Shown piece by piece: positions 939-26,831 of a stretch of 39,059 nucleotides of DNA. The notes under the pieces are model-generated. The model was not told where the DNA came from. It did no database searches and worked only from the letters and a program-made list of their open reading frames with translations. The position numbers were made by a program, and so were the translations under genes. Position 1 is the stretch's first letter; every line of letters begins with the position of its first letter. This stretch comes from a bacterium (GTDB lineage Bacteria > Bdellovibrionota > FAC87 > UBA2466), in contig RFNT01000165.1 in the NCBI GenBank assembly GCA_009927045.1, positions 1 to 39,059 of the forward strand, written 5' to 3'.

Positions 939-1817
939 CTACCAGCCTCTTTCTGCAAGACGTTCTTCGGGTTTGAGCAAATGAACATCGAGACCACGCA
1001 TTGCACTTCCCAAGCCTCGCGAGCATTTGGCTAGGAGGGCTGCATCTTCAAAATGCGTAGTGGCTTCTACAATCGAATGGGCCAATTGCTCTGGATTTTC
1101 AGATTTGAAAATACCAGAACCCACAAAGACCGACTCCGCTCCCAGCCATCGGCAAAGAGCAGCATCTGCTGGCGTTGCGACTCCACCCGCTGCAAAATTC
1201 GGAACCGGCAGTTTGCCGTTCTTAGCGACCCACTCAACGAGTGTGAGAGGTGCTCCCAGCTCTTTCGCTTCGTTCACGAGTTCTTCATGTCCCAAAGTCG
1301 TGAGTCTTCGGATTTGACTGCGCAAAGAACGTAAATGGCGGACAGCTTCTACAATATTTCCAGAACCAGCCTCACCTTTTGTGCGGATCATAGCGGCTCC
1401 CTCTCCAATCCGGCGGAGTGCTTCACCCAAATTTCTAGCGCCACACACGAAGGGAACTTTGAATTGAAATTTATCGATATGATATTGCTCATCAGCGGGA
1501 GTAAGCACTTCACTTTCATCGATGAAATCAACCCCCAGATTTTCCAAAATCATAGCTTCTACAAAATGCCCGATGCGAGCCTTAGCCATTACGGGAATGG
1601 AAACGACTTCCATAATTTCTAAAACTTTGTCGACCGGCGACATCCGAGCTACGCCCCCTTCTTTTCGAATATCGGCTGGAATTCGCTCTAAAGCCATGAC
1701 GGCTACAGCGCCTGCTTTTTCCGCGATTTTGGCTTGTTCGGCGTTCACAACATCCATAATGACGCCGCCTTTAAGCATTTCTGCTAACCCAGTTTTTAAT
1801 TTCATTTCTGTAGCCAT
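939..1817 (-). CDS. pdxS: Pyridoxal 5'-phosphate synthase, synthase subunit PdxS
   Basis: PdxS is the TIM-barrel subunit that condenses ribose 5-phosphate, glyceraldehyde 3-phosphate and ammonia into PLP. The 292-residue protein is full length. The family's catalytic residues are present: Asp22 in [11 protein letters not shown], Lys79 in [10 protein letters not shown] and Lys147 in [10 protein letters not shown]. The start at 1817 is supported by AGGAG at about 1826-1830, nine bases upstream. A second Met at residue 5 is a less likely start. It is the first gene of pdxS-pdxT-rhomboid-like and is divergent from the pyrimidine operon. Having PdxST implies the deoxyxylulose-dependent (PdxA/PdxJ) route is not needed, although I cannot see the rest of the genome. 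Confidence 0.97.
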
Positions 1818-13121: not shown

Positions 13122-13516
13122 AGAAGCCAGATTCTTTCTGGAAAGAAAAACTCAGCTCGGAACAGTACGCTGTTTGTAGACAATCTGGAACTGAAAGACC
13201 CTTTACAGGCCAATACTACCATCACAGTGAGCCAGGGATATACTCCTGCGTGGCGTGTGATTTACCCCTGTTTCGTTCAGAGCAAAAGTATGAGTCCGGA
13301 AGTGGTTGGCCTAGTTACTGGGCGCCATTGGATCCTGCTCACATCGAAGTGAGAGTTGACGATTCCCATGGCATGGTTCGAGAAGAAATCCGGTGCGCGC
13401 GCTGTGAGTCCCACTTAGGCCATGTGTTTGACGATGGTCCCGAGCCTACCGGCAAACGTTTTTGCGTGAACTCGCTGGCTCTTAAATTCAGTAGTGCTTC
13501 AACTACCAGTAAATAA
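13109..13516 (+). CDS. msrB: Peptide-methionine (R)-S-oxide reductase MsrB
   Basis: MsrB reduces methionine-R-sulfoxide in proteins. The 135-residue sequence is a stand-alone MsrB. The zinc-binding pairs are Cys47/Cys50 (CVAC) and Cys96/Cys99 (CARC). The substrate pocket motif SGSGWPSYW is at about 63-71, and the catalytic Cys119 lies in GKRFCVNS. No signal peptide is present. The start overlaps the upstream thioredoxin-like gene by 13 bases, and GGAT lies before the ATG inside that gene. It ends the long plus-strand chain. Its 3' end overlaps by 14 bases the convergent lipoprotein gene, leaving no room for an ordinary terminator between them. Confidence 0.96.
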   Translation: MEKLKKPDSFWKEKLSSEQYAVCRQSGTERPFTGQYYHHSEPGIYSCVACDLPLFRSEQKYESGSGWPSYWAPLDPAHIEVRVDDSHGMVREEIRCARCESHLGHVFDDGPEPTGKRFCVNSLALKFSSASTTSK

Positions 13517-15032
13517 CTTCATTGGTGTAGCAGGTCGCGCGTCTTCCTGCTTGGTCCACGATTCTAGCGGTGACTCGCCAAGTTCCAGGATAAGTGAAGT
13601 AAACATATCTGTAGATAGGACCTGGGGCAAACATTGAATCAAAAGTTGTGCTGTAATTTTGATCCATAGTGAAATACTCTGGGCGCTCGGCAGTTAAACT
13701 TTCTAACCAATAGCTACCCTGAGCGCCGGATCCAGTCACTGTGGCTAAAATCCAAGTATCAGTATAAGTCGGATTTGGAGTCATGCTGAGCGTGCAAGTG
13801 AAAGTTGAAGAGGAAGATGAAATCTCAATCGTAGATTGTAAAAGAGCGCCAGCGTTGCAGAGAATGCCCGTGCTTGCTGAACGAGCTCGCGCAGTCACAG
13901 ACTTATAGCCAGCGGAATAGAAACGGATATTAGGATTTTGTGAGGCAGTTCCACCCACTACATATCCATCTTGAACATAGAGCTCGGTCACTATCAAACT
14001 CTCACCCGTACTTGCGGTGATGCTGTAAGGAACCGTATCTCCGGGATAATAAGCTCCCGCGGGATAAGTGATGGAACAATTCAAAGTGCTTGACCCTGCA
14101 GTGAAAGTTACAGGAATGGATGAGGTTGCTGTTTGGCTGCCGGCGGTTGCAACGACAGTGACTGTCCCAGTACGAGTCACTAAAGCATCTACAGCAGTGA
14201 CAGTCGCTACAGCACCACTTGCGCTGAGATTCAATCCGGAGCCAGCAATGGAATAAGTGAATGTAGGTGTGGAGCTAAAGTTGGTTGCGGTGGCTGTAAT
14301 GGTCATTGCGGAAGTTGCAGGAACCGTAGAAGCCGGAGTGGCTGTTAAACTGACGGTTGGACCGCTTTGAACGGTGACCGTTCTTGCACAAGTTGCGCTA
14401 TTGCCAAGTGAATCAGAAATATAAAAAACAGCAGTGTTCAAGCCTGCAGCAGAATACCTAGCTCCCGCAGTAGCCTGTGTCGTATTGATTTGATTGAGCG
14501 ATGCAGTGATGACTCCAGTGCCGCCAGGGATAAAGCCAGTAAAAAAGTAAGTTGATCCGCCTCCGGCCGCAGTCGCAGTGTACGTCACACTTTGGTTGAT
14601 ATTTGGGGTCGTTGTAGAAGCAGCCACTGTGCATGATAAAGGATCTGTGGAGTCTTCAGGAACTACGGTGATCGCCAATTGACAGGTAGTGGATCGTCCT
14701 CCGCTATCTGTGACCGTGAATCGGGTCGTAGTGACTTGGCTATTATCTCCAGTGTTCGTAAGAGTTTGTGGAATCGTGTAAGTCGTTAAAAAACTCCCGC
14801 TAAAACCAGAGAGCGAGTAGGGTCCGGCACCACCGATGACCTGAATCGTAACGGGAAAGCTTTGGCCTGAGACCACCTGATTGAGACTGGTGGTGGCTGC
14901 ACAAGTCAGAGAGGTTCCGATAGTCCCTGGAGCTACTGTTACTGTAAGAGGTGGGGCTTCAAAGCGACAACTGCTGAGAGCAAGCACCGCAATAAGGCCT
15001 GAAAGAACTCTCCACGATTTGAAAAACTTCAT
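13503..15032 (-). CDS. Secreted lipoprotein with tandem Ig-like domains
   Basis: From the ATG at 15032 (preceded by AGGAGT) the protein is 509 residues. The N-terminus is a lipoprotein signal, LALSSC with lipidated Cys22. The rest is Ser/Thr-rich and built from about five Ig-like or PKD-like units. Several units open with a Cys and a repeating pattern: TSLTCAATTSLNQ, LSCTVAASTTTPNINQS, PTVSLTATPAST, LNCSITYPAG and FTCTLSMTPNPTYTD. No enzyme motif is visible. The protein probably acts as an exported adhesin or structural surface protein; the specific role is unknown. A start 11 codons upstream is possible but puts basic residues before the signal. The 205 bases upstream (15033-15237) contain no gene and should carry its promoter. 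Confidence 0.88.
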   Translation of the reverse strand: MKFFKSWRVLSGLIAVLALSSCRFEAPPLTVTVAPGTIGTSLTCAATTSLNQVVSGQSFPVTIQVIGGAGPYSLSGFSGSFLTTYTIPQTLTNTGDNSQVTTTRFTVTDSGGRSTTCQLAITVVPEDSTDPLSCTVAASTTTPNINQSVTYTATAAGGGSTYFFTGFIPGGTGVITASLNQINTTQATAGARYSAAGLNTAVFYISDSLGNSATCARTVTVQSGPTVSLTATPASTVPATSAMTITATATNFSSTPTFTYSIAGSGLNLSASGAVATVTAVDALVTRTGTVTVVATAGSQTATSSIPVTFTAGSSTLNCSITYPAGAYYPGDTVPYSITASTGESLIVTELYVQDGYVVGGTASQNPNIRFYSAGYKSVTARARSASTGILCNAGALLQSTIEISSSSSTFTCTLSMTPNPTYTDTWILATVTGSGAQGSYWLESLTAERPEYFTMDQNYSTTFDSMFAPGPIYRYVYFTYPGTWRVTARIVDQAGRRATCYTNEVIYW

Positions 15033-15237
15033 AAAGTAACTCCTAAAACTTCTCTTGGTTCTCAAAGCTCAAGTCGCGCAGACAGAGAGCATGCGATTTG
15101 GGGTTGCAAGTTCAAGGCCCTCTCGAACAGGACAGTGGGGAGGTTTATTTAAGAAGTGATTAGCGAAATTTAGAATGTATCCTAGATGTCATCGCACACT
15201 ATCAGTGGATGACTATGGCCTCGACAGATGAATTGCC

Positions 15238-23272: not shown

Positions 23273-24220
23273 TCAGCCCACCCATTGGGTAATGGTTTTT
23301 TGCTTTATGATATCAATAGCTTGTGACTGGTCTCGGGCCATGAATTTAGTTTCGGTGACCTCAGCAGCTGAACACGTCAAAGCCTGTGAATACCCCCGGT
23401 AGTGCCGAGCTCTTCCCAGGACTCGTGTAGTTTTGGAAAGTCGGGGAATCACCCAATTCGGGGATTGTTTCCGAACACAAACAAGAAAACTTGTGGGGAG
23501 AGCCCGCAAATCAATTCCTAAGCGTTGAGAAAATTCACTCCACTGGGAACTTTGAAAAACAGAGGACGGAGGTGGGGCAAAAAAGTGACACCAATCCTGA
23601 GTGTTCTTCGCTATTAATCCGCAAGCACCCTGATGGGGGCAGGGAGCCACGACTTCAAAAGAACTGCGCAACTGCTCTCGAACCCGAATGAGCGCTTGGC
23701 TGAGTTTTGGTGTGCCCGGCTCAATCCAAACGAGCCAATCTGCTTTCTGGACTAATAAGAGGAGGGAATCGAGCTCTCGAGGGGAGAGTTCATTTAAGAC
23801 GTGACTAATGCAAAGGGAAAAATCAACGTTAGAAAGCCTTTCAAGCCCGCTGGTAATTTCTATTTGGGGATACTGGTCCTGAATTCTTTTTTTCGAATAC
23901 TCTATAGCCAAAGGAGATCGATCCCAAAGAACTAATCGAGCAACTTGATCTGGATCGAAAACTTGTAGAAACGTCCGAGATGCAATACCGGTTCCGCAGC
24001 CCCAATCGACCAAAGTGATGGGATTACGTGGGGCGCACTGGCGTTCGGCAAGCTCACCCAGAACTGCTCGCCATTTCCAGCCGATCCGTTCTGCAAACGT
24101 GTGATCATATTGAACGAGGGTTTCCGATTCCTTCCAATAAGAACCCCCCGAAAACTTTTCTTCAAGAAACCTTTGGCGGAGCTCCTCCAGAAGTTTCCAG
24201 TTGGGATGAAAAGGTTGCAT
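23273..24220 (-). CDS. Rsm22/METTL17-family methyltransferase-like protein
   Basis: A 315-residue protein with a Rossmann SAM-binding core: VDWGCGTGIASRTF (about 71-84, motif I), then VLWDRSPLAIEYSKKR (97-112) and CISHVLNEL (137-145). The downstream PCPHQGACGL (Cys194, Cys200), DWCHF (Cys211) and LVC (Cys248) give four cysteines. This is the pattern of the Rsm22 family, whose mitochondrial members bind the small ribosomal subunit and carry an iron-sulfur cluster. By that relationship it probably acts in small-subunit assembly. Whether it methylates anything is unproven. GGGGG lies right before the ATG. It is 34 bases after the Cys-rich gene in reading order and may be co-transcribed with it. 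Confidence 0.85.
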   Translation of the reverse strand: MQPFHPNWKLLEELRQRFLEEKFSGGSYWKESETLVQYDHTFAERIGWKWRAVLGELAERQCAPRNPITLVDWGCGTGIASRTFLQVFDPDQVARLVLWDRSPLAIEYSKKRIQDQYPQIEITSGLERLSNVDFSLCISHVLNELSPRELDSLLLLVQKADWLVWIEPGTPKLSQALIRVREQLRSSFEVVAPCPHQGACGLIAKNTQDWCHFFAPPPSSVFQSSQWSEFSQRLGIDLRALPTSFLVCVRKQSPNWVIPRLSKTTRVLGRARHYRGYSQALTCSAAEVTETKFMARDQSQAIDIIKQKTITQWVG

Positions 24221-24254: not shown

Positions 24255-25583
24255 CTATTTTTTTATGATGAGGTCGTCAGAAGTATTTGCTTTACCATCC
24301 GGACCGACTGAAATGAGCTTGTAGCTCTTTCCATCGCTCACATACAAGAATTTACCAAACACACCGCTGAACGGATCTCGGGGCGGTTCTTTCCGACCAT
24401 TAAATGTCGTGGGGTTTGCTAGCAAACTCTCTCCTTGTTGAGAGACTAAAGCTCCCAATCCGAGTTGGGTGCTAGGATATTTACCATGAGCTTTAAAATA
24501 CTTTTCCAATGCAATCGCAAATAAATCTAATTGATTATTTGCTAGAGCATAAGCATCGCGGTCTCGGAGGGCTACGGGCCCTGTGAATTTAGGTTGGTTG
24601 GGATTGCGGCATTCATATTTATTCGAGCTGAGCACGCCCTGAAATGTTTTAACGCACTCAAGGCCTTTATCACATTTAAATTCAAAAAGTCCACGAGAGC
24701 CAGGCCCAGGACAAGCTGCTCCGATGAAGGAGCGAGCTCTGCACTCAGTAAAGTGGCTCTTATTCTTATCTTTAACAAGAACGCATCGGCCAACAAGCCA
24801 ATCAGAATCCTCTCGGTAACAGTCGGAATCCTGCTTACACAGCGGAGTTTGAACATAATAGTTTAAAAAGGAAAGACGAGACTGAATGTCTTGCTTGATC
24901 GTTTTAAGAACGCGGCCCAAGCAGATTTTGCAGCGACGCTCAATATCTCCCTGAGTCGTATAGGCAGGTACTTCGCCCAACGAGCAAATGTCTTCACCTT
25001 CAAAATATTCGGAACGTAAACGTTCCACATTGGTTCCACCCTCCAAACCCACTTTGAGAAGATCGAGCCCAGGCATTTTTGCTTCCATTCCCAGGACTAA
25101 ACCCGTTTGATGATAATCGCTGAGCGCTTCTCGATGGGAAACCTGACAGCTGACTTTCCCTGGAACCAAAACAGAACGTCCTTTAGCATCCCAAATATTC
25201 TGGTCTTCAGGAATATTTTCAGCACGAAAGAGCCAACGAGAAAGGGTTTCACTGCGGCGGGTGAGTTCCACATTGCCTACGACTCCCACTGGACCCACTT
25301 TTACATTCACGCGGAAAGGAGCCACAGAAGTTCCAGACATTTCTAAAATGCCTTCTTGATGGCTTCTCGTTCGTTCATCCCGCTCCTCTTGGGGTTTTTC
25401 CTCGGGAACTAATTTGTTGACTGTGACGGGTCGGGCTTGGGTGTCTCTGTACTTGTGATGGAGTTTATTGAAATAGGGATTGTTGAGATTATGGGGATCA
25501 TCAAAAACGGAAAAGGGATCCGCCGCAAAAACGAGCGTCGAGTAGAATCCAAAAGCGAATAAGAATAAATAACGTAACAACAT
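24255..25583 (-). CDS. Secreted Cys-rich protein with C-terminal GspG-like domain
   Basis: The 442-residue protein has a Sec signal (LFLFAFGFYSTLVFA) and no pilin-type prepilin-peptidase motif. Residues ~25-145 are of unknown fold. About residues 145-325 contain at least twelve cysteines (CSL, RRCKICLG, PLCKQDSDCY, CVL, TECRA, AACPGP, FKCDKGLEC), suggesting a disulfide-knotted module. The last ~90 residues match the soluble part of the type II secretion major pseudopilin GspG: QLDLFAIALEKYFKAHGKYP, RDPFSG, FLYVSDGKSYKLISVGPDG and TSDDLII, including the calcium-loop pattern. It may interact with the secretion pseudopilus or have reused the fold. Start: ATG 25583 is chosen; an in-frame GTG at 25595 adds four residues. 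Confidence 0.86.
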   Translation of the reverse strand: MLLRYLFLFAFGFYSTLVFAADPFSVFDDPHNLNNPYFNKLHHKYRDTQARPVTVNKLVPEEKPQEERDERTRSHQEGILEMSGTSVAPFRVNVKVGPVGVVGNVELTRRSETLSRWLFRAENIPEDQNIWDAKGRSVLVPGKVSCQVSHREALSDYHQTGLVLGMEAKMPGLDLLKVGLEGGTNVERLRSEYFEGEDICSLGEVPAYTTQGDIERRCKICLGRVLKTIKQDIQSRLSFLNYYVQTPLCKQDSDCYREDSDWLVGRCVLVKDKNKSHFTECRARSFIGAACPGPGSRGLFEFKCDKGLECVKTFQGVLSSNKYECRNPNQPKFTGPVALRDRDAYALANNQLDLFAIALEKYFKAHGKYPSTQLGLGALVSQQGESLLANPTTFNGRKEPPRDPFSGVFGKFLYVSDGKSYKLISVGPDGKANTSDDLIIKK

Positions 25584-25710
25584 CCTACGTCCCACTTCAT
25601 TCCCATTCCTTGATAGGAATGAGAATTCTGGTTCCCTAATGCAAGACCCAGGACCCCTCAGGAGCTTTTAAAAACATAAAGAATACAGAGGTTTATATAT
25701 CACCATAAAA

Positions 25711-25733: not shown

Positions 25734-25784
25734 CCAGGTGTAAATCAGGTAAACACTGGGCGCTTTCATTGGGAAAGGGTGGTT

Positions 25785-26831
25785 ATGCCGGTTTTGAAGT
25801 CTTTCGTTTTTTTCCTTTTATTGTGTCACACACATCTACTCTTAGCCTGTACCGCTTTTCACTGGAAAGGCGCTGAGGGCGCATTTGCAGGAAAAAGCTA
25901 CGATTGGAATCACCCGCAAGCCTTGCTCTTAACCAATAAAAGAGGCGTGAAGAAACAAGGCTTCACTATCAGACCTTGGGAAAGTGGCCCGACTTGGACT
26001 TCTCGTTTAGGCAGTGTGACGTTCAATCAGTACGGAAGAGAATTTCCCAATGGGGGCATGAACGAGGCCGGGTTGATGGTGGAAGTGCTCTGGCTCAACT
26101 CCAGCGAGTATGAGGGGTTTGATTATCGACCCGTTCTGAATCAGCTCACTTGGGTTCAGTACCAACTGGATAATTTCACTCGAGTCTCAGAAGTGATTGA
26201 TGCACTCCCTCAGTATCGGATGTCACCGATTCAAGGAAAGATTCATTATTTTGTATGTGATGCTGAAGCCAATTGCGCAGTAGTGGAATGGCTCAAAGGT
26301 AAACCGGTGGTTCATTCGGGTGCTCAACTCAATCCGCAAGCCATCACCAATCATACCTTCGAAGAATCGCTTGTGTCGTTACGAGGCATTCAGGGACAAC
26401 TCCAATTGAAAACGAGTCTCAACTCCACCGACCAAAGTTCATTGAACCGCTTCAAAACAGTCGTGGAGGCAATGAAGACTGAAGTGCCCTCTGTGGGTCA
26501 GAGCTTCAACCTATTATCAGCTGTGAGAATCCCTCAGTTAACCACTTGGCATATTGTTTACGATATCACTCGAAAAGAAATTCATTATCGAACCAAAGCA
26601 AACGAAGCCATTCGAAGTGTACAGATCGAATCTTTTGATTTTGATTGTAAAAAAGAAGTGCAGATGTTGGGAGTTGATGAAGGAACGGGTGCTGTGAATT
26701 CTTTATTTACTTCTTTCGACGAGAATAGAAATTATGCTGTGATTCAGGAAAGCCTCAGCGACGTTAACTTTGCTTGGATGCTGGCTCCAATGTTGAGCCG
26801 ATATCCGGGCACGACGGTTTGTACCCAGTAA
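25785..26831 (+). CDS. Choloylglycine-hydrolase-family (Ntn) amidase, exported
   Basis: A 348-residue linear-amide C-N hydrolase. A signal peptide (LKSFVFFLLLCHTHLLLA) ends exactly before Cys22 in LLLACTAFHW. In this family the N-terminal Cys is the catalytic nucleophile, so signal cleavage would expose it. The next blocks fit the family: GKSYDWN (about 36-42), NQYGREFPNGGMNEAGLMVE (about 82-101), a conserved Asn further on and ITRKEIHYRT near the C-terminus. Homologues split bile salts, penicillin V or acyl-homoserine lactones; the substrate here cannot be read. LLAC also resembles a lipobox. ATG 25785 is chosen because AAGGG precedes it at good spacing; a GTG two codons earlier is possible. 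Confidence 0.88.
   Translation: MPVLKSFVFFLLLCHTHLLLACTAFHWKGAEGAFAGKSYDWNHPQALLLTNKRGVKKQGFTIRPWESGPTWTSRLGSVTFNQYGREFPNGGMNEAGLMVEVLWLNSSEYEGFDYRPVLNQLTWVQYQLDNFTRVSEVIDALPQYRMSPIQGKIHYFVCDAEANCAVVEWLKGKPVVHSGAQLNPQAITNHTFEESLVSLRGIQGQLQLKTSLNSTDQSSLNRFKTVVEAMKTEVPSVGQSFNLLSAVRIPQLTTWHIVYDITRKEIHYRTKANEAIRSVQIESFDFDCKKEVQMLGVDEGTGAVNSLFTSFDENRNYAVIQESLSDVNFAWMLAPMLSRYPGTTVCTQ

Follow-up and report, generated by a model that had tools for sequence, protein, structure and literature searches.

Within a 39,059-nucleotide contig from the phylum Bdellovibrionota (hereafter the window, i.e. the whole stretch of DNA that was analysed), one gene is a genuine, lineage-specific domain fusion, in which most of the globular domain of the T2SS pseudopilin GspG follows a Cys-rich secreted protein. 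The product is not a pseudopilin, even though most of a pseudopilin's globular domain is present. The fusion would most likely have come about by domain shuffling and the module would be calcium-stabilised, to judge from its sequence. We consider it on balance probable that an exported disulfide-rich protein gained the C-terminal soluble part of a GspG-type protein, in this lineage only, as a stabilising or binding module.

Architecture of the fusion protein

The coordinates given for the gene in an earlier note, made from the letters alone, were borne out by a minus-strand ORF running from an ATG at 25583 (or a GTG at 25595, giving 446 aa) to a stop at 24255 (Table 1). The same note had read an ordinary signal peptide and a Cys-rich module ahead of a C-terminal GspG pattern, and all three were recovered. 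The signal peptide is of Sec type, ends in VFA-AD, carries neither a lipobox nor a prepilin motif by sequence reading and hydropathy scan, and belongs to the only long hydrophobic segment of the protein (residues 1-27). All 12 Cys lie between residues 146 and 325.

Table 1. Features of the fusion gene and its surroundings, with comparable loci; positions are those of the window except in the last three rows, which are loci of two same-family genomes.
Feature	Position	Strand	Basis
Whole fusion gene, 442 aa	24255..25583	-	ORF list and translation
Sec-type signal peptide, residues 1-21 (MLLRYLFLFAFGFYSTLVFA, followed by A)	25521..25583	-	Sequence reading and hydropathy scan
Host part, about residues 70-336, secreted Cys-rich family, 12 Cys	24576..25374	-	Homologue comparison
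Junction, residues 332-342; orthologues terminate shortly past here	24558..24590	-	Orthologue alignment
GspG-type (T2SSG, PF08334) soluble domain, residues 346-437	24273..24548	-	Pfam, PDB and profile searches
Calcium loop GPDGKANTSDD, residues 427-437, exact PERCAL match	24273..24305	-	Sequence reading; PMC3396595
Rsm22-type methyltransferase, downstream neighbour, synteny anchor	23273..24220	-	Same neighbour in both congeners
CBAH/linear amide hydrolase, upstream divergent neighbour, synteny anchor	25779..26831	+	Same neighbour in both congeners
L045, signal-peptide and TM protein ending in GspG-type calcium-loop piece	1357-1782	-	
L047, small multi-TM protein ending in GspG-type calcium-loop piece	1069-1641	+	
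L051, small multi-TM protein ending in GspG-type calcium-loop piece	1072-1620	+	

The C-terminal domain was assigned to GspG by several searches. Pfam returned a single family for the whole protein, T2SSG (38.1 bits, E 1.8e-9, against a gathering cut-off of 21), with a match that spans profile positions 12-101 of 108 and so exceeds the cut-off over most of the domain. A phmmer search of the PDB retrieved GspG structures only (3g20, 2kep, 1t92), and profile comparison gave a probability of 98.7%. Against an HMM built from the GspG of 40 relatives, the domain scored 61.5 bits, the best of 2000 shuffled sequences reaching 7.8. Twenty of the 30 conserved soluble-domain columns are retained, including YP, G-L-x-A-L, DP, the DG preceding β2, S-x-G and the calcium aspartates; half of the ten lost positions cluster at residues 383-393, in the α2-β1 region. 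The calcium loop, which the earlier note had also picked out, is intact and fits the PERCAL motif GxDGxx[GN][TN]xDD exactly at the sequence level. The pseudopilin structure 3G20, in which the corresponding aspartates bind calcium, was one of the sources for the description of that motif (PMC3396595).

AlphaFold models built on alignments of three sequences (full length) and one sequence (domain alone) had low confidence, with pLDDT values of 51 and 46, respectively; GspG sequences taken from the whole-genome searches formed no part of the input. The low-confidence domain model contains helices at 10-35 and 51-58 and strands at 77-85, 89-95 and 101-110 (construct numbering), an order of elements roughly like the α1-α2-β1-β2-β3 of GspG; fold searches returned no significant match.

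What makes a pseudopilin of such a domain is missing, as the earlier note had pointed out for the prepilin motif. A motif scan of the fusion protein found no GFxxxE-like sequence (GF[TS]LxE...), and hydropathy near the domain peaks at 0.49 over residues 290-442 (Kyte-Doolittle, 19-residue window), without any hydrophobic helix. An upstream pilin-type N-terminus missed by the choice of ATG or GTG start was considered and rejected, the domain being in frame behind the host protein and the orthologues also having signal-peptide-like beginnings. The NCBIfam GspG model TIGR01710 matches the protein (E 3.4e-6) at 27.1 bits, below its equivalog cut-off of 88.85; together with the missing leader and helix, this score sets the protein apart from pseudopilins. 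Helix α1 forms the pseudopilus core, and pilus subunits bury chiefly α1 (PMC6692295). As the membrane half of this helix is absent here, the domain cannot be a normal filament subunit, in agreement with the earlier view that the usual entry into a pseudopilus is closed to it.

Host family and origin of the fusion

Syntenic orthologues of the host gene occur in two congeners (G001 and G002), between the same Rsm22-type methyltransferase and linear amide hydrolase genes, and share 56% and 46% identity with the host part; both lack the GspG domain. Another 22 genomes of the phylum encode more distant relatives of about 330-550 aa (L057-L078). Congeners included, the family is present in 25 of 291 genomes of this phylum. 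We aligned 13 members, ten of them distant. Nine residues are invariant (C146, C255, W262, C267, C281, C291, C304, C310 and C325), the host C-terminus is variable, and the ten distant members are likewise devoid of a GspG domain. The host part has no match in Pfam, NCBIfam or the PDB. A non-significant match to Prokineticin and a non-significant procolipase fold match give no more than a hint of a possible colipase/Dickkopf-like Cys fold.

The absence of the domain from the congeners and from all ten distant members makes it most likely that about 300 bp were inserted, in this lineage alone, in the interval separating the host gene from the gene next to it. The host gene of G001 stops about 33 bp short of the methyltransferase gene, and that of G002 overlaps it; in the window, the reading frame continues for about 300 bp past the host end, followed by a 34-bp spacer to the methyltransferase gene. 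In the GspG tree the window genome and G002 are sisters, with G001 outside, so that one gain is more parsimonious than two losses. The GC content of the domain is slightly lower (0.43 versus 0.47), which by itself says little.

A fresh duplication of the resident gspG was rejected: identity between the fused domain and the GspG encoded in the same genome is no higher than 31-37%, whereas the GspGs of the window genome and G002 share 95.5% identity (52-58% for flanking genes), and the domain also lacks the 'C[ED]DGQ' segment of the clade. A donor search of 369 genomes of the phylum gave ordinary-looking GspGs at 35-45% identity as best matches; among plasmids it returned one ordinary gspG, and among viral contigs none. 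In the GspG tree the fused domain sits on a long branch (2.65) and its placement is unsure. Both an already diverged leaderless GspG-type gene as donor and very fast evolution after capture fit these observations.

T2SS context and possible roles of the domain

Another contig of the same genome (C149) holds an apparently complete T2SS operon, to whose genes we assign the letters C, D, E, F, G, H, I, J, K, L, M and N from gene order and features, gspG alone being profile-tested. The fusion gene, on C140, is not part of a gsp operon, and its neighbours are unrelated to secretion. The co-occurrence with T2SS genes suggested as a check holds as far as the presence of the operon goes, but it does not discriminate: gspG is present as well in both congeners that lack the fusion, so that co-occurrence shows no functional tie. 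Two candidate secreted proteases are encoded elsewhere in the window, a papain-family cysteine protease (PF00112; 17080-18570, plus strand) and a subtilase (PF00082; 29653-31077, minus strand), together with a 520-aa ORF (13503-15065, minus strand) that has no Pfam match at E 1e-5.

Because the host family has no Pfam or PDB match, the role of the GspG module is something we infer. The ordinary signal peptide, read from sequence, would lead the host part through the inner membrane. The appended domain, deprived of the membrane helix of the pilus core, cannot polymerise, given established pilus structure. Bound to calcium, it should take up a compact fold, either in the periplasm or beyond the cell, and serve the host protein as a C-terminal stabilising or binding module. 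It would have arrived already diverged, or have diverged very quickly, and is not a young copy of the genome's own gspG.

Four other explanations were weighed against this stabilising or binding role. That the host simply does the job of its family and the domain is near-neutral, tolerated ballast heading to loss, we regard as unlikely. The presence of the domain in one species only, its far-reaching divergence and the variable C-terminus of the host family agree with such an extension, yet long neutrality should erase the motif, and here the core and the calcium residues are intact and 90 codons have stayed open.

A docking module, by which the T2SS partners of GspG (pseudopilus flank, tip complex or assembly platform) would recognise the domain and recruit the host protein as an exported substrate or regulator, seems distinctly unlikely. 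The genome does hold a T2SS operon (C to N as read) with a normal gspG, and the fused domain retains the fold core and the calcium site positions. On the other hand, the PulG segment 86-97 takes part in contacts between neighbouring subunits (PMC6692295), and the losses at residues 383-393 fall near it, which is mildly against preserved pilus contacts. The low identity between the domain and the resident GspG, the lack of linkage to T2SS genes and the fact that gspG-bearing congeners manage without the fusion also speak against docking. The more specific proposal that a detached pseudopilin head acts as an address tag, binding T2SS components and routing or tethering the Cys-rich protein to the machine, is in our judgement quite improbable.

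The earlier note suggested that the protein may cap or block the pseudopilus, or be a substrate mimicking it. This found no support: nothing in our results indicates that the protein touches the pseudopilus, its gene is on a different contig from the T2SS operon, and the congeners, with an ordinary gspG and the same host gene, lack the domain. Binding of the domain to the growing end, stopping growth, draws on the homology itself and nothing else, and is very improbable. A growing pilus receives its subunits at the inner-membrane base, a site to which a domain without an anchor would have poor access; the burial of chiefly α1 between subunits (PMC6692295), when the membrane half of α1 is absent here, and the absence of T2SS genes from the neighbourhood count against it as well. 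Finally, that two genes were joined artificially during assembly or sequencing can scarcely be the explanation: the fusion is known from a single draft genome of 263 contigs, but both flanks are syntenic with the two congeners and the insert is in frame, has no close match elsewhere in the genome and carries its own stop 34 bp ahead of the next gene.

Comparison with related modules

The module shares with GspG (PulG, XcpT, EpsG; 3g20, 2kep, 1t92) the C-terminal half of α1, YP..GL..L, DP[WF], DG and the S.GPDG....DD loop. Unlike GspG, it has no prepilin leader, lacks the membrane half of α1, shows an altered α2-β1 region and sits behind a 340-residue Cys-rich protein outside any gsp operon.

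As to the search for the same fusion in other genomes, proposed at the outset, the two congeners and the ten distant family members are without it. Leaderless GspG-type C-terminal pieces with a calcium loop occur on non-pilin proteins in two same-family genomes (L045, L047 and L051; 18-20 bits). No prepilin motif is visible in these three proteins, which resemble the window protein in carrying the C-terminal part of GspG and its calcium loop outside any pilin. They match part of the domain, just under the Pfam cut-off, whereas the window protein has nearly the whole soluble domain and is a soluble exported protein. A PF08334 match on a 745-aa protein of another genome (G014) was judged a chance coiled-coil match, as that protein reads like a Wzc-type chain-length protein. 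Three adjacent pilin-type proteins of about 400 aa (L044, L046 and L048, on contig C389 of G004) combine a prepilin leader with a GspG-like segment and also have a long extension at the C-terminus.

A parallel outside pilins is provided by the PERCAL proteins, bacterial animal-type peroxidases that also carry the GxDGxx[GN][TN]xDD loop (PMC3396595); there the calcium loop alone was inserted, whereas the window fusion involves a GspG domain. Our literature search found no paper on leaderless GspG fusions.

The fusion thus offers a clearly bounded case in which the globular domain of a secretion-machine subunit has moved onto an unrelated exported protein, in one species and not in two syntenic congeners. 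The marks that designate T2SS substrates are still unsettled, and if the domain does bind the machine, an exported protein with a domain of that machine would allow them to be probed directly; were it to act as an address tag, pseudopilin folds would be recruitable as substrate-targeting modules. If there is no binding, the protein would be an example of the GspG fold used as a generic calcium-stabilised module.
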